From Actinomycetaceae bacterium (GTDB lineage Bacteria; Actinomycetota; Actinomycetes; Actinomycetales; Actinomycetaceae), in assembly GCA_017539125.1 (NCBI GenBank), contig JAFYHO010000126.1, forward strand, positions 1-37,638: 37,638 nucleotides of DNA, in the 5' to 3' direction. Of this stretch, positions 1,227-34,552 are shown piece by piece. Numbering within the stretch: position 1 is the first letter of the stretch; each line of letters opens with the position of its first letter. The translations under genes and the position numbers were made by a program. The notes under the pieces were generated by a model. The model did not search any database and was not told the origin of the DNA. It was given only the letters and a program-made list of their open reading frames with translations.

Positions 1227-1862
1227 ATGAAAGTTACAAAAATACGTGTTCTCGCATGGCGTTTACGCTTTGTCCTTATCGCCTGCGCTATCCTCGCAAT
1301 TCTCGCCCTCACGCTCGAAACACTCGGCGCGATACATCCACCAAGCCATCGCGTGCTCGTCACGAAAAATCCTGTTGAAGCGGGAACTGAGCTTCAGGCG
1401 AGCGATATAGAAATTGTCGATATGCCGAGTTCTCTCGTGCCAGAGGGTGCCCTCACGGCGCTCGAAGAAGCCGTGGGGAAACAGCTGGTTGTTGGGCTGC
1501 CGAAAGGTATGGCTGTGCCTGGCGAACTGCTTGCCACCTCGGAGTTTTTTGCCAACGCGCCGCGCGGCACACGCATTGTCTCTGTGCCTATCATCGCTGA
1601 CGGGCAAAGTGCGCTAGTTAGTGTTGGCGATAGTGTTGCCCTCTATGCTCCGCCTGACGAATACTCGGCAGACGGCACGTCAACTCTCCTTGTTGACAAG
1701 GTACGAATTGTCGGGATTTCTCAGGCAGACAGCAGCGGTTTTCTCAGCTCTGAGCAAAGCACAATGACTGCTTTCATCGCAGTACCCACGAAAGACGTCC
1801 CTGCTGTCCTAGGGCAATCCTCCCACTCAGCCCTCCAAATCGTCCTCTTAGGGGAAAAATAA
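1227..1862 (+). CDS. SAF-domain protein, CpaB/RcpC-like pilus assembly factor
   Basis: This 211-residue protein has one N-terminal membrane segment (about residues 14-36) followed by an SAF domain (about 40-105) with the typical pattern: 'VLVTKNPVEAGTEL', 'ASDIEIVDMP' and 'LPKGMAVPGELL'. The rest (110-211) resembles the C-terminal half of CpaB/RcpC proteins, which assist Flp/Tad pilus assembly outside the membrane. In actinobacteria such short SAF proteins are common and often annotated only by domain. It is separated by 12 kb from the pilin-type genes at 13225-14235, but both carry the same 42-bp upstream block. The next gene starts one base after its stop codon, so they are probably cotranscribed. 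The SAF domain is clear; the pilus role is inferred. Confidence 0.85.
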   Translation: MKVTKIRVLAWRLRFVLIACAILAILALTLETLGAIHPPSHRVLVTKNPVEAGTELQASDIEIVDMPSSLVPEGALTALEEAVGKQLVVGLPKGMAVPGELLATSEFFANAPRGTRIVSVPIIADGQSALVSVGDSVALYAPPDEYSADGTSTLLVDKVRIVGISQADSSGFLSSEQSTMTAFIAVPTKDVPAVLGQSSHSALQIVLLGEK

Positions 1863-1863
1863 T

Positions 1864-2217
1864 ATGTCTGAAAGTGATAAATACCAGCTGCCACATCGTT
1901 TTAATTGTTATGAGTATGTGTCAAGAGATGTTCTCGAAGAACGCTATCTATTTATCACCCGTGTTTTTCTTGACAAAAATACAGGCCGCATGTGTGATTT
2001 CCATATACAGCTATCTGACAAATATACTCATCAACTTCTGGTATCAGCAGATTGTGAACATCAAGTAGCGCACTACCACGATGAACGACGGGGACACCGT
2101 AACTCTCCGCGTTACGATTTCGCCCCTGCCAGTACACACAGTGAGATAGAAAAAGCGTGCGGACGTGTTATGGACGAAATTTTAGAGTTTTGTCGCCGTA
2201 AAGGCATTATCCTATAG
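1864..2217 (+). CDS. Unknown small protein, first gene of an AT-rich pair
   Basis: I cannot assign a function to this 117-residue protein. It has no membrane segment. Visible features are a tract rich in aromatic and charged residues (5-30), a predicted beta-rich middle, a His-rich stretch around 'VAHYHDERRGHRNSPRYDF' (about residues 67-85) and a helical, basic C-terminus. The pattern of a conserved Tyr/His/Asp-Glu patch followed by His residues recalls small domain-of-unknown-function proteins found beside partner genes, but I could not confirm a family. Its base composition is clearly lower in GC than the surrounding core genes. The ATG lies one base after the SAF gene stop, suggesting translational coupling. 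The following gene starts 24 bases downstream. Confidence 0.7.
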   Translation: MSESDKYQLPHRFNCYEYVSRDVLEERYLFITRVFLDKNTGRMCDFHIQLSDKYTHQLLVSADCEHQVAHYHDERRGHRNSPRYDFAPASTHSEIEKACGRVMDEILEFCRRKGIIL

Positions 2218-2241
2218 GTAGTTAAAGACAGGAGGAAAATT

Positions 2242-2646
2242 ATGGACACTATCGATAAACGTATAAACAAAGCACGCGGATTCGCAACCTTAACCGCCGC
2301 ACGCTTGCGCTATGGTTTTCCCATACAGCATGAGGACGGAGGATATCCCCTTACTATTACTATCCCCGATGAACCTCTGTCACAATGCATACGGCGCGCT
2401 AAATCCTTAGACGACGCCGTCAACCTTGTTGTCGTGACGGGAGAAAAAATAGAAACCTGCGTCCTTCGCATATCGGCTGACGCTGAAGCAGACGAGAACA
2501 CAATTGTGCTCCCGCAAAACAGCTCCTACACGGTCGGGCAATACATACAGGACAGCCGAGACCTCGGCACTTTCCTCCCCGTCCACACCATGGACGGTAT
2601 GACCATGATTACCGACTCCCCCTTAGACACACTCACACCCGCATAG
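2242..2646 (+). CDS. Unknown small protein, second gene of the pair
   Basis: This 134-residue soluble protein is not recognisable to me. It has a helical, basic N-terminus (residues 3-25), then 'GYPLTITIPDEPLSQCIRRAKSLDDAVNLVVVTGE', which looks like an alternating strand/helix fold, and an acidic C-terminal half. A strong AGGAGG lies seven bases before the ATG. It follows the 1864 gene closely and its stop codon directly abuts the first 36-bp hairpin, so the pair ends at a likely transcript end. Two short adjacent genes of accessory composition could form a toxin-antitoxin or other interacting pair, but nothing in either sequence proves this. Confidence 0.7.
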   Translation: MDTIDKRINKARGFATLTAARLRYGFPIQHEDGGYPLTITIPDEPLSQCIRRAKSLDDAVNLVVVTGEKIETCVLRISADAEADENTIVLPQNSSYTVGQYIQDSRDLGTFLPVHTMDGMTMITDSPLDTLTPA

Positions 2647-2682
2647 GTTGAAGGACTTCCGATTTTCAGGAAGTCCTTCAAC
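2647..2682. repeat. 36-bp hairpin repeat, copy 1
   Basis: A perfect inverted repeat: GTTGAAGGACTTCC, loop GATTTTCA, GGAAGTCCTTCAAC. One more G-C pair flanks it (2646/2683). It begins on the base after the TAG stop of the preceding gene. Identical copies lie at 3262 and 3559. It could end transcription, although no T-run follows. Confidence 0.9.
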
Positions 2683-2783
2683 CAAGAGATAATATACACC
2701 ATAGGTATATAGCACATTAAGTATTTGGTGTGTTATGTCTCTGTGTTTCAATTTTCTATTTTAACGAAAGGATGGTGGTCGAA

Positions 2784-3266
2784 ATGACTACTATTTCGAA
2801 AAAATTGATGGCAGTCATGGCAACTGCTGCCCTAGCTCTTGTTGGCTTGGCGGCGTGTTCGTCGGAGTCGTCTGCTACTATTGGCGAGTATACTGTGCCA
2901 AAATCTGTAGAGTCTCTATCTAAAACAAGTGTGCCTGAGCCTATATCATTGACTGTTGGCAGGGGTGAAGAAAATGGCGATGCGGTTTCTTGTTATTCAG
3001 GAACCGATAACGAGATGAAGTGTGAGTATTCGTCGTTTGGAGAGCCTTCGGTCAATCTCTATACGGGCGAGATACCTGCCACTTCTGAGGATTTTTTTGA
3101 AATATCTGCGGAAAACATCGGAGAAGTATTTGGCACAAAAGATCTCACAGACCTTTATTTTTTTGTCACATATAAAGACAGTAATGGTGAAGGAAAATGT
3201 TTTTGGATACCGAATGATAAATTGAAAAACGAGGAGGATGAATGCAAGAGACGCGGTATTGGTTGA
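2784..3266 (+). CDS. Small secreted lipoprotein
   Basis: This 160-residue protein carries a clear lipoprotein signal: 'MTTISKK', a hydrophobic stretch, then the lipobox 'GLAAC' with the lipidated Cys at residue 25, followed by a Ser-rich linker. The mature part is acidic, with three cysteines that could form a disulfide, and no recognised domain. I chose the ATG at 2784, preceded by GGTGG about five bases upstream; longer in-frame starts at 2730 and 2772 lack a usable ribosome site and would bury the signal peptide. The TGA stop codon is supplied by the second 36-bp hairpin, so the native C-terminus may have been cut off when that repeat arrived. AT-rich DNA at 2695-2730 probably holds its promoter. 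Confidence 0.75.
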   Translation: MTTISKKLMAVMATAALALVGLAACSSESSATIGEYTVPKSVESLSKTSVPEPISLTVGRGEENGDAVSCYSGTDNEMKCEYSSFGEPSVNLYTGEIPATSEDFFEISAENIGEVFGTKDLTDLYFFVTYKDSNGEGKCFWIPNDKLKNEEDECKRRGIG

Positions 3267-3297
3267 AGGACTTCCGATTTTCAGGAAGTCCTTCAAC
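3262..3297. repeat. 36-bp hairpin repeat, copy 2
   Basis: The same sequence as at 2647, with all 36 bases identical. Its fourth to sixth bases form the lipoprotein stop codon on the plus strand; on the minus strand it is in frame with the jag fragment and encodes LKDFLKIGSPST. Confidence 0.9.
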
Positions 3298-3558
3298 GCA
3301 GTCACAACCGGATCGGGTGTCTCGGCAGAATCTGCTGTCTCGACCGCGTCATTTGCCTCTGCAGCAGCAGGCGGCTCTGGAAGAAGCACAACATGACGCT
3401 CGTCGCCCACACCAGACGAATCCGAATAAATCCCGCAGGAAGCTGCCAAATCGTGGACAACCTTGCGCTCAAAAGGATTCATTGGCTTAAGGGCAAAAGC
3501 TTTCTTTGTCTCTTTGACGATATCAATGGCTTCCTGTGTCTCAAGAGCAATGTCTTGG
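3298..3558 (-). pseudogene. jag/khpB remnant encoding an R3H domain
   Basis: Exactly 261 bases (87 codons) lie between hairpin copies 2 and 3 and read on the minus strand as the C-terminal part of a Jag/KhpB RNA-binding protein. The R3H domain is recognisable by 'LKPMNPFERKVVHD', containing the R-x3-H signature, and by the closing strand 'RHVVLLPE', followed by a Pro/Ala/Asp-rich tail. The KH domain and Jag N-terminal domain are absent, and there is no start codon or ribosome site. The frame stays open through both repeats. An intact jag normally sits beside yidC, rnpA and rsmG, none of which is here. I infer a captured or duplicated fragment of a gene located elsewhere. Confidence 0.75.
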
Positions 3559-3594
3559 GTTGAAGGACTTCCGATTTTCAGGAAGTCCTTCAAG
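3559..3594. repeat. 36-bp hairpin repeat, copy 3
   Basis: It matches the copies at 2647 and 3262 except for the final base (G for C). It lies two bases beyond the stop codon of the minus-strand gene ending at 3597, so it may end that operon, and it forms the other border of the jag fragment. Confidence 0.9.
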
Positions 3595-3596
3595 TT

Positions 3597-3833
3597 TTAT
3601 AATTTGCCGAAGTGGGGCGGGAGCTCGTCGAGGAGGCGCTGCTCGTTAGGATCGCGGGCGCGAAGGTCGCGCTGCGGCTCGCCACCGCCTGCGACACCCA
3701 CAACACCAGTACCCTCAGTCAAAGCCTCGCGTAAAGCCTGAGCGTCACCGTCAATCTCTCCGCGCTCAATACGCTCCCTATCAACCCGCGACAGTCTGAC
3801 AACGGGAGAATGCGTGCGAGACTTATCCGACAC
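3597..3833 (-). CDS. Small conserved-looking protein coupled to the helicase-like gene
   Basis: This 78-residue charged protein has no membrane segment. Its C-terminus, 'DPNEQRLLDELPPHFGKL', follows a pattern (Asn/Asp-Glu-x-x-Leu...Pro-Pro-His) that I associate with small uncharacterised actinobacterial proteins; its middle holds a Gly/Val stretch. The GTG start shares its first base with the TAG stop of the large upstream gene (TAGTG), which argues for translational coupling and for this being a real gene despite its size. An unassigned accessory factor of the large protein is a reasonable guess. The hairpin at 3559-3594 lies just behind its stop. Confidence 0.7.
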   Translation of the reverse strand: MSDKSRTHSPVVRLSRVDRERIERGEIDGDAQALREALTEGTGVVGVAGGGEPQRDLRARDPNEQRLLDELPPHFGKL

Positions 3834-6800
3834 TAGTCATCCCCATAAACGGCACTGCTATCAGGCTCGTCAAGAACGCCTTTGCCTTGAGTGTCATTCT
3901 CGGCGCGAATATCGAGCACTTCATCGCGCAACGAAACAGCGGGCGCAGCAGACTGCGCACTCAAAGCCGAAGAAATATCGTCGCTCGACAAGCCAGAGCG
4001 TCGCACCACATTGCGCAGCACAGCATCAATCTGCGAACCACGACGGGTGACGTCCAGCTCTTCACGCAGAGCGAGGACAAGCTCATCCTCAGTGCGCCGC
4101 CTGCCATCCGACGCAATCCACGTAACCATTTCATCGAGCTCGTTATCAGCATAAGCAGCCAAAGGCAAACCTGGGGCAATATTCGGACGCGGCCCGCGCT
4201 CTTTAATCTGCGAAGCTTCCTCACGCAAAGTCTCCTGCCAGCCCTCTGCCAATTGCGAAGAAGCCGCATTCTCTCCCGCATCGTCCGTCACTGTCTCCAA
4301 CAATTCAACGACAGCGCGCGCCTGACCAACAGGGTCAATAAACAGCGAGGTCGAGAATGTGCGGTACACAATCCAACCGCGCTGCTCGAGACGCTCAAGC
4401 CAATAGCGGTCACGGCGGCGCAAAGACGGCTCGTGTACATAGTCCTCATCGTCAAGAAGAACAGCCACTCTCCACGTGCCCTCTAAATTCTCGCCACCCG
4501 CGACAAGCGGGATACGGATGCCGTCATCGTAACCATAATTGACTTGCGTCTGCCAACCAGCCTGCTCAATACGCGAAGCCAAATCGGCAACCAGCGGGCT
4601 CACCCCTTCATCGTGGGCGACCGGCGCAAGCTCATCAGCAGTCTGCCCCATGCGCTCAAGCAGGCGTGCCAGCAGCTTCGGACCGGGCGCATTGACCGCA
4701 TCAGGCTTAATATCGCCAGGGGCAAGCGAAGAAATCACTGTCAATTCCTCGCGCGGCGCTTGGGTCGCGTCAATCAAGCCACTCAAGCCCTCGTCCTCAC
4801 TCAAAGCACCAAAGGTGTGCAAAATCCTGCCGTGAGCAGTCTTTCCTAAGCCCACCGTCAAGATAACGCAATCACGGCGAAGCCCCACACAATTGGTGAT
4901 ATCGACGATGACGAATGGCTCGTGGGTTTGCGTATTGAGGTGGCGTTGCAGGACGCTCGAGCCGCGAACTGTCTGACGCAGCGCCTCGCGCACGCGCTCA
5001 GCGTGATACGGCGAAATCGAGACGACCGCGAGGGACTTTTCTGGCTTGGTCAAAATATGTTCGACGACCGCGTCAACCACAGCATCGACTTCCTCTGCCG
5101 TCCCCTCGACCATGCCCGTCGTTGGAGAAGGAACACCGCGACCGTCCACAACCAGCAAACGCGAAGAGTCAGACTTTCCGACACTCGGAATCATCTCGAT
5201 AATGTCCCCGTAGCCGTGCTCGCGCAAAGTCGCAGCACCCAAAGCGTCATAACGCGCACGGTGAAGCGGCAACTGGATGACGGGAAGAACATCGCTGAAA
5301 GCCGTGATAGCGGAGTTTTCGTCGGCACGCTTGCGGTCACCCACCACCGCAATCTGGCGGCCACGCATAAGCATCGAGGCAACCGAGGCGACACTGACGG
5401 TGTCCAGAGTGTCCATAATGACCAAGTCGGCCCACGGCAGCTGCGGAATAAGCTCTGCCACCAAGACGCTGGGAACAACCCATACCGGACGCGAAGCCTG
5501 AACGAGCTGAGGATACTTGGCGAAAGCCTGCGCCAACATTCCCATATCGTAATTCTTCAAATGCTCATCGAGAGCCATCGTGTCTTTGCGCTTGCGCGAA
5601 ATAGTCTCACGCATATTGCGGATAACCGCGCGCAGCACGGGCCCCGACAGTGAAGCAGTATGCGCCTTATCCAGCGCGCGCACATCATCGGCAAGCTCTG
5701 ACAGCTCCGCACAGCCAATACTCGACAACTCAGCCGAGTCGCCCACAAGCTGCTCAAAAACAGACGAACAATAGACGAGGTCAAGCTCGCTGTCAATCAT
5801 CTCCTCACCGACACCACGCTCAGCGAAATCTTCGACAAGAGGACGCAATCCCTTCTCGGTAAACAGAGCCATAAGCTCGTTGCGCCGTGGAATTGTCGTC
5901 ATCGCTTCACCGTCATCTGCCAGGCGGCGAACCGTATCGAGCATTTCCTCCATCGGCATCTGCTCTAGCTTCATATCGCTTGCCAAATCAGCGGAGAGCG
6001 CCTTGATTTCACGGACGGCTTCGGCAGCCGAAAGCTTAATCTGCGAAAGCCCCTGCGGAATCTTCACAACCCCGCCCTCTGTGGCGTAATGCCGCCAAAT
6101 ATCGCGCAAATTCTGGACTTTGACAAGCGCGTCATGCAGATCGGCAACATCAAGCCCCGGCTTGAGATACTCGCGCGCCTGCTTGGCAAGACGGCGACGC
6201 TCCGCATACGACATCGGCTCCTTGTTTTCCTCACGCCATTCTTTCGTGGCGGTTGCAATCACCATGTCTTGAGCCGAGCGCTCATAAATACTGGGGAGGA
6301 ACACGTCGAGAGTGCCTTGAATACCGTCAAGCATAGTAATCTGCTCAAGCCACTCGTTGAAAGTCTCAGCGCGGCGCAGGTCGGTTTCGGAGGCAACACG
6401 ATGGGATTGTGCCATGACGACGGGGATATTTTCTTGGGCGAGACGTTTTGCGCGGTCGAGAGCAACACGCCCTGCTTCCTCGTCTGCAATGGGCGAATTG
6501 GCCCACAGCGTGGCGCCCTCACCAGTATGGAACATGCCCAAGCGTGCCGCTTCGCGGATGTCGCCGGAGATTTCCTCGTAATTGTCGACCAGATTGCGCG
6601 TCACGTCGATGGGGAGGCGAACGCGCGAAGCTGGCGCGTTCTCACTGACAACCAGCGCAGCCATATGCTGCAAAAGGGTGTGGACGGATTCGTCCCATTC
6701 CTCATTTTTCTTGTGCAAAGCACTCACATAGCCCTCAAGACGGGCACGTTTATCGGCAAGCTTATCGCGCAGTTCTAATGTCTCCGCATCGTTCAGCTCG

Positions 6801-9787: not shown

Positions 9788-9908
9788 TCACTGGCAATGC
9801 GCGTCTACACGAAGCACGCGACCACAAGCCTAGTGCACATAGGCGTCTGCGCGCTGGAATGTCCGCGTTCCCTTGCTCTCACAGCAACAACAGGTGTGTC
9901 AAGGGCAG

Positions 9909-9992
9909 GTGTGTCAAGGGGACGGTTCTCTTGACACAACTCAAGCCAACCAAAACAAAAAGCGTGTCAAGAGAACCGTCCCCTTGACACAC
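9909..9992. repeat. Long inverted repeat, REP/MITE-like hairpin
   Basis: Two perfect 29-base complementary arms (9909-9937 and 9964-9992) flank a 26-base loop. The arms carry the words GTGTGTCAAGGGGACGG and TTCTCTTGACAC. A partial direct copy (CAGGTGTGTCAAGGG) precedes the left arm at about 9892. It ends two bases from the glgP stop codon. Similar GGGACGGTTCTCTTGACAC palindromes are known to me as REP-type repeats linked to IS200-like transposases, but no transposase gene is present here. Confidence 0.8.
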
Positions 9993-9994
9993 CC

Positions 9995-23035: not shown

Positions 23036-23041
23036 CCCCCA

Positions 23042-23163
23042 CCGTCATCGCGAGCACGCGTAAGCGTGCGTGGCGATCTATAGTCCCTTTAACAGCCCGC
23101 TTCGCAACTCAGCTATTCACGTCGGTATAGATTGCTTCGCCCCTGCGGGGCTCGCAACGACGG
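23042..23163. repeat. Interspersed palindromic repeat, copy E
   Basis: It starts CCGTCATCGCGAGCACGCG and ends GGGGCTCGCAACGACGG. It shares GATCTATAGTCCCTTTAA and GGTATAGATTGC modules with the copy at 30542. It sits exactly between two convergent genes. Confidence 0.8.
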
Positions 23164-23169
23164 AAGGGA

Positions 23170-24778: not shown

Positions 24779-25576
24779 ATGAATTTTGCGTATACGATTG
24801 CAGGCTCGGAGGCCACTGGTGGCGCGGGTTTTCAGGTTGACCTTAAGACTTTCCAGCAGCTTGGTGTCTATGGTATGGGCACTTTGACGTGCATTGTTTC
24901 TTTTGACCCGAAGAACGGGTGGGCTCACCGCTTTGTGCCGGTTGACCCGCAGGTTATCCGCGACCAGATGGAGGCGGCGCTGTCCTCACAGGATATTGAC
25001 ACCGTCAAGATTGGTATGCTCGGCCACCCCGATACGATTGCCGCTGTCGAGGAGGGCTTGAAGAGCCAGCCGTGGAAGAATGTCGTGCTTGACCCTGTGC
25101 TGATTTGCAAGGGACAGGAGCCCGGCGCAGCCCTCGATACTGACACGGCTTTGCGTGAGAAGATCGTTCCTTTGGCGACGGTCGTGACGCCGAATAATTT
25201 TGAGGCAAAGACGCTGGCTGGTATGGACGAGCTGGAGACGGTCGAGGATTTGGCTGAGGCTGCTGAGCGTATCGCTGAGCTTGGTCCGAAATATGTGGTC
25301 GTGAAGGGCGGTATTGATTTCCCTGGTGACGACGCTGTTGACGTTTTGTGGGACGGTGAGGGTGCGACGGTTTACCGCACGCCAAAGATTGGTCAGGAGC
25401 GCGTCTCTGGTGCTGGCTGCACGCTGGCTGCTGCGATTACCGCCGAGCTCGCTAAGGGCACGGAGATTGCCGAGGCTGTCCAGATTGCTAAGGACATGGT
25501 GACTGAGGGCATCAAGGCGCGCGTCGCTGCCCACACGCCTTTCGACACCGTCTGGCAAGGCGCCTACACCCGTTAG
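24779..25576 (+). CDS. Pyridoxal / hydroxymethylpyrimidine kinase (PdxK/ThiD family)
   Basis: A 265-residue ribokinase-fold kinase. The N-terminal 'AGSEATGGAGFQVDLKTF' (residues 8-25) is the ThiD/PdxK substrate motif and 'VSGAGCTLAAAI' (209-220) the anion hole, with Cys214 in place of the usual catalytic Asp, as in the ThiD-like pyridoxal kinases of Gram-positive bacteria. It phosphorylates either vitamin B6 (salvage to PLP) or HMP (thiamine synthesis); the Cys and the absence of other thi genes here make B6 salvage somewhat more likely. AAAGGA lies before the ATG. It stands alone between repeats. Confidence 0.85.
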   Translation: MNFAYTIAGSEATGGAGFQVDLKTFQQLGVYGMGTLTCIVSFDPKNGWAHRFVPVDPQVIRDQMEAALSSQDIDTVKIGMLGHPDTIAAVEEGLKSQPWKNVVLDPVLICKGQEPGAALDTDTALREKIVPLATVVTPNNFEAKTLAGMDELETVEDLAEAAERIAELGPKYVVVKGGIDFPGDDAVDVLWDGEGATVYRTPKIGQERVSGAGCTLAAAITAELAKGTEIAEAVQIAKDMVTEGIKARVAAHTPFDTVWQGAYTR

Positions 25577-25580
25577 CCCA

Positions 25581-25788
25581 CCGTCGTTGTTCGCGGCTAC
25601 GCCACTTACAACAACTTCGTCATTCCAGTCTCGTGAAAGCAAGCTTTCACGGACCTTTCATTCCTCGTTGTGCGAGCCCTTTTTGTCGTTGCGAGGGCGC
25701 GCAAGCGCGCCCGCGGCAACCTCCAGTTCCACTATTGCCTTCTCGAGATTGCTTCGTCGCTCGCTCCGCAGGCGACGAACAACGACGG
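25581..25788. repeat. Interspersed palindromic repeat, compound copy F
   Basis: Two units joined: 25581-25676 is about 96% identical to 30542-30637 (CCGTCGTTGTTCGCGGCTAC to CTCGTTGTGCGAG), with a GTGAAAGCAAGCTTTCAC hairpin; 25685-25788 is a second unit with a GGGCGCGCAAGCGCGCCC hairpin and the end GAACAACGACGG. Confidence 0.85.
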
Positions 25789-29068: not shown

Positions 29069-30535
29069 ATGAATCTACAGGGCTGGGCCGATAAGCGCCG
29101 CGCAATGCGCGCGGAAAACGAGGAAGCTTTCCACTCGCATAACATCTCTCTGGATTTGCCAACAATCCAAGCCGAGTGGAACACCCCCGTCACCGAGACG
29201 AGCCTGCTTTCGCGCGCCAGCGTCATTATGCGTGTTGGACTGCTCGATCTTGAGAGTGGGACGGGCGCTTTCCACGTCGAACTTATAATGCAACGCGTTG
29301 GGAAACTGCTGGGCGTGCGTGTGCGCCCCAATGTCATGCTCACGTCTTTGGAAGCCACCCTCGCCGATAACGACCAACGCATGACAGAGATTGTCGATGT
29401 GCCAAGCGCCAGTGTTTCCACCCGCCGAATCTGGCATATGGAATACTTCTGCGACTGGTTCTATGAGGCTTTCGGCAAGGAACACCCCTACAATGTCGCG
29501 GCCGCGCCGCTCATGCGCACAAGTATCCCAGATTTGCCAGAGGGAGCAGTACCAACCCTCGGTCAGGTACACGCCATGCTTGACGCGGTCGAATATGCGA
29601 AGAAACCGTATATCCACATTCAGCATGGCGCGGCTGCCGCTATGGCCTGTGCGTCCTTTACCTTCCTGCTCGGCGGAGGCCCTTACGATATGGTCGCCGC
29701 ACTTTTCGGCGCTTTCGCCTCGCAAACTGTGCGTACCTACATGATCAGCCGCCACTATACTCAATATGTCACGACAGCTCTTATCGTGCTTGTGGCAGGT
29801 TTCGTCGCTATCGGCACGCTGCGCCTCATCTCTTTCATTGACCCCTCTGCCCTCTCGCACGACACCGCCTATATCGGCGCGATGCTCTTTATCCTGCCAA
29901 CCCTGCCCTTCCTGACGGGCGGTATGGATGTGGCGAAGCTGGATTACCAGTCTGCCGTCCAACGCTGGACGCATTCTCTCGTGGTAATGACGGTTGCGAC
30001 AATGGCTGCGTGGGGTGTTGCCGCGACGGTCGATTTGAATCCCGAGGCTTTCCCGCAATCGACTTTGCCACTTGGCCTGCTTATTATCTTGCGTGTTATC
30101 GCCAGTTTCACGGGTGTGTATTTCTATTCCCTGCTGTGGAACGCTCCGTGGCGTATGGCTTTTGTGGCTGGTTGCGTGGGCGCTATTGCCAATACTGTGC
30201 GTCTCGAGTTGATTGACTTGGCGGGACTAGAACCTGTCGTTGCAGCTTTTATCGCGGCGACGTTGGTGGGCCTGTTGGCGAGCGCATGGAAGAAGTACGC
30301 CGAGAGAACGACCGCGCACTCTTTCAATTTTCCGCATCACGCCATGACCTTCACCGCCGTAGCGATTATGGTGCCTGGTTTCTATATGTATCAGGCAATG
30401 TACAACCTTGGCTCGATGCAGATTGATAATGCGCTTGATTGGATTTTCCGCGCATCAATGGTTGTTATCGCCTTACCTGCCGGCTTGGCTTTCTCACGCT
30501 TCATCAGCAGCCGCAGCTGGCGCTACGAAGTGTAA
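29069..30535 (+). CDS. thrE: Threonine/serine exporter (ThrE family)
   Basis: A 488-residue protein with both parts of the ThrE family. The N-terminal soluble domain (about 45-190) has 'VGLLDLESGTGAFHVELIMQRVGKLLG'; hydrophobic segments follow from about 195 to 480, roughly ten helices, including 'LLGGGPYDMVAALFGAFASQ'. ThrE exports threonine and serine with the proton gradient. Cotranscription with serC suggests disposal of excess serine. In the related actinobacterium Corynebacterium this family is well studied. Confidence 0.93.
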   Translation: MNLQGWADKRRAMRAENEEAFHSHNISLDLPTIQAEWNTPVTETSLLSRASVIMRVGLLDLESGTGAFHVELIMQRVGKLLGVRVRPNVMLTSLEATLADNDQRMTEIVDVPSASVSTRRIWHMEYFCDWFYEAFGKEHPYNVAAAPLMRTSIPDLPEGAVPTLGQVHAMLDAVEYAKKPYIHIQHGAAAAMACASFTFLLGGGPYDMVAALFGAFASQTVRTYMISRHYTQYVTTALIVLVAGFVAIGTLRLISFIDPSALSHDTAYIGAMLFILPTLPFLTGGMDVAKLDYQSAVQRWTHSLVVMTVATMAAWGVAATVDLNPEAFPQSTLPLGLLIILRVIASFTGVYFYSLLWNAPWRMAFVAGCVGAIANTVRLELIDLAGLEPVVAAFIAATLVGLLASAWKKYAERTTAHSFNFPHHAMTFTAVAIMVPGFYMYQAMYNLGSMQIDNALDWIFRASMVVIALPAGLAFSRFISSRSWRYEV

Positions 30536-30541
30536 CACTTC

Positions 30542-30742
30542 CCGTCATTGTTCGCGGCTACGCCGCTTACAACAACTTCGTCATTCTAGTCTCGTGAAAG
30601 CGAGCTTTCACGGACCTTTCATTCCTCGTTGTGCGAGGGAGCGCGGCAATCTATAGTCCCTTTAATTGCCAGCTTTGCAAAGCAAGCAATCAGGTTGGTA
30701 TAGATCGCCACGTCGGCGCAGAGCGCCTCCTCGCGATGACGG
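30542..30742. repeat. Interspersed palindromic repeat, compound copy G
   Basis: Its first 96 bases match copy F with four differences; the second half has GGCAATCTATAGTCCCTTTAA and GGTATAGATCGCC modules shared with copy E and ends CTCGCGATGACGG. It fills the gap between convergent thrE and nhaC. Confidence 0.85.
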
Positions 30743-30764
30743 GTTGGTGTACGACGGGTTGGAT

Positions 30765-32348: not shown

Positions 32349-32732
32349 ATTCTTCTCCTTAAAAAGACAAGCCATGATCTTCATGGCCTGCGAGAGAGAA
32401 AATATGCTGACCATGATAGCGCTCCGCGAACGCGACAGTACGTCAGATATTCTCTAACGTCCCAGACTGACACAGACGGAAACCTGTATCAATCTTCGGC
32501 AAACTTCCCTTTCACCCTCAGTTTTTCCGAACTATTAGAGAGGGGTAATCATGAAATTTGCGCCTCTACCATGACAATTGGTTGTAACAGAAAGCATTCT
32601 AATGCTCCGACGTCTACCTTTCAGCGAAATCGCACGCTTTTTCTGCTCATCACATGGACGCACGTGTGAGCAGGTACACCGCTCTCCTGTCTTGAAGCCT
32701 ACGCCTGCTCTGGCTAAACTGTATCAAGTCAT
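32349..32732. other. Non-coding region between nhaC and tRNA
   Basis: It contains the nhaC leader, with a small GCCATGA/TCATGGC hairpin at about 32372-32388, and the tRNA promoter at 32692-32720. I see no ORF, repeat or riboswitch that I can name in the rest. Confidence 0.6.
32692..32720 (+). promoter_or_regulatory. Promoter of the initiator tRNA
   Basis: TTGAAG (32692-32697) and TAAACT (32715-32720) are spaced by 17 bases and end 12 bases before the mature tRNA 5' end, a good match to a housekeeping sigma promoter. Confidence 0.7.
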
Positions 32733-32806
32733 CGCGGGGTGGAGCAGTTCGGTAGCTCGCCGGGCTCATAACCCGGAGGTCGCAGGTTCGAATCCTGTCC
32801 CCGCCA
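32733..32806 (+). tRNA. tRNA-fMet (anticodon CAT)
   Basis: A full cloverleaf of 74 bases. The acceptor 5' strand CGCGGGG pairs with CCCCGCC except at the first position (C opposite C), and the anticodon stem has the three G-C pairs GGG/CCC around CTCATAA; both are hallmarks of the initiator. The T arm is AGG-TTCGAAT-CCT. The 3' CCA is not encoded. Confidence 0.97.
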
Positions 32807-32814
32807 CGAAAAAG

Positions 32815-34365: not shown

Positions 34366-34396
34366 ATTTTACATTATAGCTGGTATTTCATTTATT

Positions 34397-34504
34397 GCAG
34401 TCGTTTCCCACACTATTTTGCAGTCGTTTCCCACACTATTTTGCAGTCGTTTCCCACACTATTTTGCAGTCGTTTCCCACACTATTTTGCAGTCGTTTCC
34501 CACA
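34397..34504. repeat. Tandem array of a 23-bp unit
   Basis: The unit GCAGTCGTTTCCCACACTATTTT, split at base 20 for reading (GCAGTCGTTTCCCACACTAT then TTT), occurs four times without gaps at 34397, 34420, 34443 and 34466; a fifth, 16-base copy is at 34489. All copies are identical. The array lies 32 bases upstream of the ATPase start codon, where operators or iterons would sit. Confidence 0.9.
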
Positions 34505-34525
34505 TTCAATCTGCCATACCCCAGT

Positions 34526-34552
34526 AGGTTCAAATCCTGCCCCCGCCACGAA
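34526..34552 (+). pseudogene. Truncated 3' end of a tRNA-fMet gene
   Basis: These 27 bases match 32784-32810 (T arm, acceptor 3' strand and the bases after it) with two differences. The 5' part of a tRNA is missing; just upstream, CCATACCCCAG is only loosely like the anticodon arm. A terminator follows as it does for the intact gene. Confidence 0.8.

Follow-up and report, generated by a model that had tools for sequence, protein, structure and literature searches.

Local duplication of a terminator-like palindrome beside a displaced jag gene fragment in an Actinomycetaceae genome

At one locus of an Actinomycetaceae draft genome, a terminator-like palindrome has been duplicated locally, and the duplication is tied to at least one captured gene fragment, an arrangement that is uncommon and mechanistically suggestive. 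In the window (the whole stretch of 37,638 nucleotides that was analysed), three hairpins in the same orientation lie within 950 bases of one contig and bound two blocks of DNA, one holding a complete lipoprotein gene and the other an internal piece of jag, also known as khpB. The jag piece ends exactly at a hairpin on each side, and the corresponding site of a sister species is empty. The features of the locus are listed below in window coordinates.

1227..1862, plus strand: SAF/CpaB-like gene at the left edge of the islet; in sister species G002 it converges directly on the small gene
1864..2217, plus strand: orphan gene P0005, the first of a two-gene pair
2242..2646, plus strand: orphan gene P0004, the second of the pair; its stop abuts hairpin copy 1
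2646..2683, no strand: hairpin copy 1, perfect 15-bp arms, loop GATTTTCA; the most complete copy
2684..3260, plus strand: block 1, AT-rich insert; its ORF 2784-3266 is a complete orphan gene for a lipoprotein
3261..3297, no strand: hairpin copy 2, 14-bp arms (3262-3297); gives the lipoprotein ORF its TGA
3298..3558, minus strand: block 2, 261-bp internal jag/khpB fragment (R3H domain); native copy at G000:C120:24344-24604
3558..3594, no strand: hairpin copy 3, 13-bp arms (3560-3593) with an outer G/G mismatch, followed by GTTTTATAAT on the plus strand
3597..3835, minus strand: conserved 78-79 aa gene adjoining a helicase gene; two bases separate its stop from hairpin copy 3; right edge of the islet

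The hairpins occupy positions 2647-2682, 3262-3297 and 3559-3594 and carry the same plus-strand loop. The first two read GTTGAAGGACTTCC-GATTTTCA-GGAAGTCCTTCAAC, and the third is near-identical, with G as its final base. Common to all three is a 36-mer, GGTTGAAGGACTTCCGATTTTCAGGAAGTCCTTCAA (in short, GGTTGAAGG...CTTCAA), at 2646-2681, 3261-3296 and 3558-3593, with the loop always in the same orientation. The base right after these 36 bp differs in copy 3, so that the right end is ...CAAC in copies 1 and 2 and ...CAAG in copy 3. Outside the loop the stems are perfect, and the hairpin folds strongly both as RNA and as DNA. The first-pass annotation of this DNA had described three identical palindromes with 14-base arms; the identical loop is present in every copy and the arm length holds for copies 1 and 2, whereas copy 3 has shorter arms and a different last base. 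The contacts with stop codons that it described are all present: copy 1 follows directly on the TAG of ORF 2242-2646, copy 2 supplies the TGA (3264-3266) of ORF 2784-3266, and copy 3 begins two bases past the minus-strand TAA (complement 3597-3599) of the 78-aa gene. Such contact would be expected anyway of a hairpin that separates convergent genes when the genome is compact.

A pattern search allowing up to three mismatches found only these three copies in the draft genome (1.79 Mb, 173 contigs); otherwise, single arms matched at only two unrelated places, each with one mismatch. With about 6e-15 further copies of a 34-mer expected in the genome, chance is excluded as the source of the copies. 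The earlier view that the copies arose by duplication and not independently is supported. The hairpin was absent from 213 genomes of its family, including two of the same genus and 210 others of the same family, a search of the genome_contigs and viral contigs gave no match, and phages and plasmids searched with window 2600-3650 gave none either. The further suggestion of a dispersed, exchangeable family of stop-associated repeats does not survive these searches: the 36-mer occurs at this locus and nowhere else in the genome, the family or the collections, the very outcome under which the first-pass annotation had said that the idea would fail. In 437 kb of genome sampled, 34 hairpins have arms of at least 11 bp, and identical copies at that arm length occur at this locus only; what is unusual is therefore the local multiplication and not the hairpin itself.

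Evidence that the hairpins mark points of insertion comes from block 2. This block is identical to the native jag gene at 250 of 261 positions (96%) without gaps. On either side the homology breaks off precisely at the hairpin, and native jag continues there with unrelated sequence. It encodes the R3H domain and is devoid of the N-terminal part, the last seven codons, and the start and stop codons. The native gene is intact elsewhere in the genome between yidC- and rsmG-like genes (names assigned by reading the translations), and there is no hairpin in that yidC-jag-rsmG setting. Eight of the 11 differences between block 2 and native jag are synonymous, versus 3.2 expected without selection (P ~0.004). 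This synonymous excess indicates that most of the divergence arose in functional jag genes, and it suggests that block 2 came from a donor about 4% diverged or that the change occurred on the native branch.

The GC content of block 1 is 41%, versus 54% for the window, nothing related to its DNA occurs elsewhere in the genome, and the lipoprotein that it encodes has no relative in 39 genomes, the genome_contigs or the viral contigs. The notion of repeating units of a small gene plus a hairpin fits this block and fails for the other, an internal jag fragment without start or stop.

The hairpin array forms the right-hand part of an islet of about 1.7 kb (1863-3594) that begins with the two orphan genes. 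Distant homologues of the P0005/P0004 pair, also adjacent to each other, are found in genus g11 (L083, L084) near small secreted-type genes, and none of the three islet proteins has a match among viral contigs. In the sister species, the small gene and the SAF gene are convergent and about 18 bp apart, without the hairpin or any other part of the islet. In relatives, the small gene lies beside a DUF4011-type helicase gene close to the SAF/CpaB-like gene, often with one gene in between, which by reading is mscL-like.

The everyday role of the hairpin is most likely that of an ordinary transcription terminator. On the plus strand, the stem of copy 3 is followed by the T-rich GTTTTATAAT, which is the pattern of an intrinsic terminator, and no T-tract follows copy 1 or copy 2. 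The terminator function suggested in the first-pass annotation is thus plausible for copy 3 on the plus strand and unproven for copies 1 and 2. Intrinsic, bidirectional terminators resemble the hairpin in having a GC-containing stem that follows stop codons where genes converge; they differ from what is seen here, where three identical copies have unrelated DNA between them.

We propose that, for the jag piece at least, insertion of DNA left a terminator-like palindrome duplicated at either edge without a change of orientation, a proposal that we regard as about equally apt to be right or wrong. The starting state would have been a single palindrome in the gap that separates the P0004 gene from the small gene converging on it. 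At least one insertion, that of the jag fragment, would then have hit the palindrome exactly, and the lipoprotein block was probably a second; every insertion would have left a complete same-orientation copy on either side of the new DNA. In the simplest route, offset cuts would be made in the two strands at or close to the palindrome's base, at sites made equivalent by its symmetry; a structure-specific nuclease acting on an extruded cruciform or a replication hairpin would be an example of the cutter. Each broken end would regain the whole palindrome by strand-displacing fill-in, and the two ends would then be linked through a segment of unrelated DNA. We infer the order of events, the cut and fill-in, and the arrival of block 1 by the same route, the last of these by extrapolation.

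Several observations are consistent with this proposal. The jag fragment is flanked on both sides by 36 bp that are identical and in the same orientation, as in a target-site duplication, and this identity, together with the common loop orientation of all copies, favours target duplication over inversion. Because the jag homology ends at both hairpins, independent hairpin insertions on each side would need a coincidence at both edges. CRISPR repeats offer a precedent for a palindrome that is duplicated when DNA is inserted (PMC4940900). Other data are less easily accommodated. Given the CAAC ends of copies 1 and 2 and the CAAG end of copy 3, a perfect target duplication requires one extra or altered base. 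No intermediate strain with one hairpin was found. As to the agent, our preferred reading is that repair went wrong at a cruciform or replication hairpin, which would yield an identical product with no dedicated enzyme, since the event is confined to one locus, the insert sizes are irregular, the insert includes a fragment of a housekeeping gene, and no recombinase was seen in the window ORFs scanned. Against it counts the length of 36-38 bp, which is small for a palindrome made fragile by nucleases; the bacterial cases studied concern far longer palindromes, one of them 460 bp (PMC4245961).

An assembly or library chimera, in which the hairpin would be a false join, is unlikely but carries more weight than the other alternatives. 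The genome is a draft of 173 contigs, the hairpin occurs on this contig only, and the edges of the blocks are abrupt. However, block 2 differs from native jag at 11 of 261 sites, mostly synonymous, which makes a simple self-chimera unlikely, while leaving room for the jag gene of a second strain. Moreover, 36-bp hairpins with three different flanks were resolved in the assembly, and the neighbouring genes at the outer edges are intact together with their stops.

Some resemblance to CRISPR adaptation raises the possibility of palindrome-targeted capture, in which a gene or gene fragment of hundreds of bases from the same or a closely related cell would be inserted and the 36-bp hairpin duplicated each time; we consider this improbable. 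During adaptation by Cas1-Cas2, each new insert ends up flanked by copies of a palindromic repeat, which in E. coli measures 28 bp (PMC4940900), and both cases have in common a short palindrome duplicated around each inserted piece of DNA. In contrast to the 30-40 bp spacers of a CRISPR array, the intervals here are 579 and 261 bp, and one insert derives from a housekeeping gene of the bacterium's own type. The 29 window ORFs scanned include no cas gene, and the 437 kb of genome sampled showed no CRISPR array.

A similarly low probability attaches to integron-like or other site-specific cassettes, in which a recombinase would act on the hairpin and move each block together with it. The array does alternate identical hairpins with blocks (hairpin-block-hairpin-block-hairpin), block 1 holds a complete gene, and an integron array likewise repeats a gene followed by a folded palindrome. 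However, attC sites are defined by RYYYAAC and GTTRRRY boxes at the ends of the palindrome (PMC3053210), and a search of both strands up to 30 bp from each copy found neither box. The stem is perfect, without the extrahelical bases of attC, and the jag block is an internal gene fragment lacking both start and stop. No IntI tyrosine recombinase or other recombinase was found among the 29 window ORFs scanned, and the genome contains no further copies of the hairpin.

Three insertions of a tiny mobile palindrome (MITE-, REP- or RPE-like) that happened to fall around a duplicated jag fragment would account for the identity of the copies, and we judge this quite improbable. On the minus strand, the hairpin is open in the frame of jag, which would suit such an element; with four of its six frames open, we rejected this as coincidental. 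REP/BIME and MITE sequences are also short palindromic intergenic repeats, but they are dispersed in many copies, whereas the hairpin is present in three, all within 950 bp and with none elsewhere in the genome or family. Chance insertions would also not be expected to leave jag homology ending exactly at both hairpins. The genome does hold a dispersed palindromic repeat of another kind, a mosaic found in the window at 6-109, 23036-23169, 25572-25678 and 30533-30758. It is about 100-220 bp long, with conserved linkers around GTGAAAGNNNNCTTTCAC and variable hairpin arms, and it occupies about 63 merged places in 437 kb of genome. Its core motif gave 26 strand hits (13 copies) in the 437 kb and none in 395 kb from four genomes of the family, and the repeat has no match in Rfam.

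There is equally little chance, in our estimation, that the terminator was multiplied by ordinary duplication or gene conversion, the contents of the blocks being irrelevant. Long terminator-like hairpins are plentiful in this genome, as such an origin would suppose, but homology should then extend beyond the hairpin. This is the case in genome G016 (L112, 16985-19907), where a local 137-bp duplication that includes a hairpin with 17-bp arms flanks the gene for an 897-aa protein; this identical pair was considered as a parallel case and rejected as part of an ordinary duplication. At the locus described here, identity ends at the hairpin edges, except that copies 1 and 2 share at most four further bases. 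No second gene fragment bounded by hairpins emerged when 437 kb of the genome were compared all against all. Finally, one-ended rolling-circle capture of the IS91/Helitron type, with the hairpin as the terminus of each captured segment, is highly improbable. The capture of gene fragments beside a terminal hairpin is typical of Helitrons (PMC4778049), but the window ORFs scanned showed no HUH or other transposase, and no free parent element with this end exists in the genome.

If the junctions are real, insertion with duplication of the palindrome would mean that a short palindrome has served as a precise insertion point and has been copied at both edges of captured DNA, and such capture would stand outside any recognised CRISPR, integron or transposon. 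The intact native jag gene, at 4% divergence, would make the locus a naturally calibrated test case for the acquisition of gene fragments beside terminators. No description of such an arrangement was found in the literature searched, coverage of which was partial.

The window contains other repeats and structured elements. A perfect 30-bp inverted repeat with a 26-nt spacer (9908-9993) lies between the adenylosuccinate synthetase and phosphorylase genes. At 34395-34509, a 23-bp unit, TTGCAGTCGTTTCCCACACTATT, is present in five tandem copies, and beside this array is a partial repeat (34526-34552) of the 3' end of a tRNA-Met (32784-32810). On the minus strand, a Na+/H+ antiporter-family gene is preceded by a lysine riboswitch at 32409-32576.
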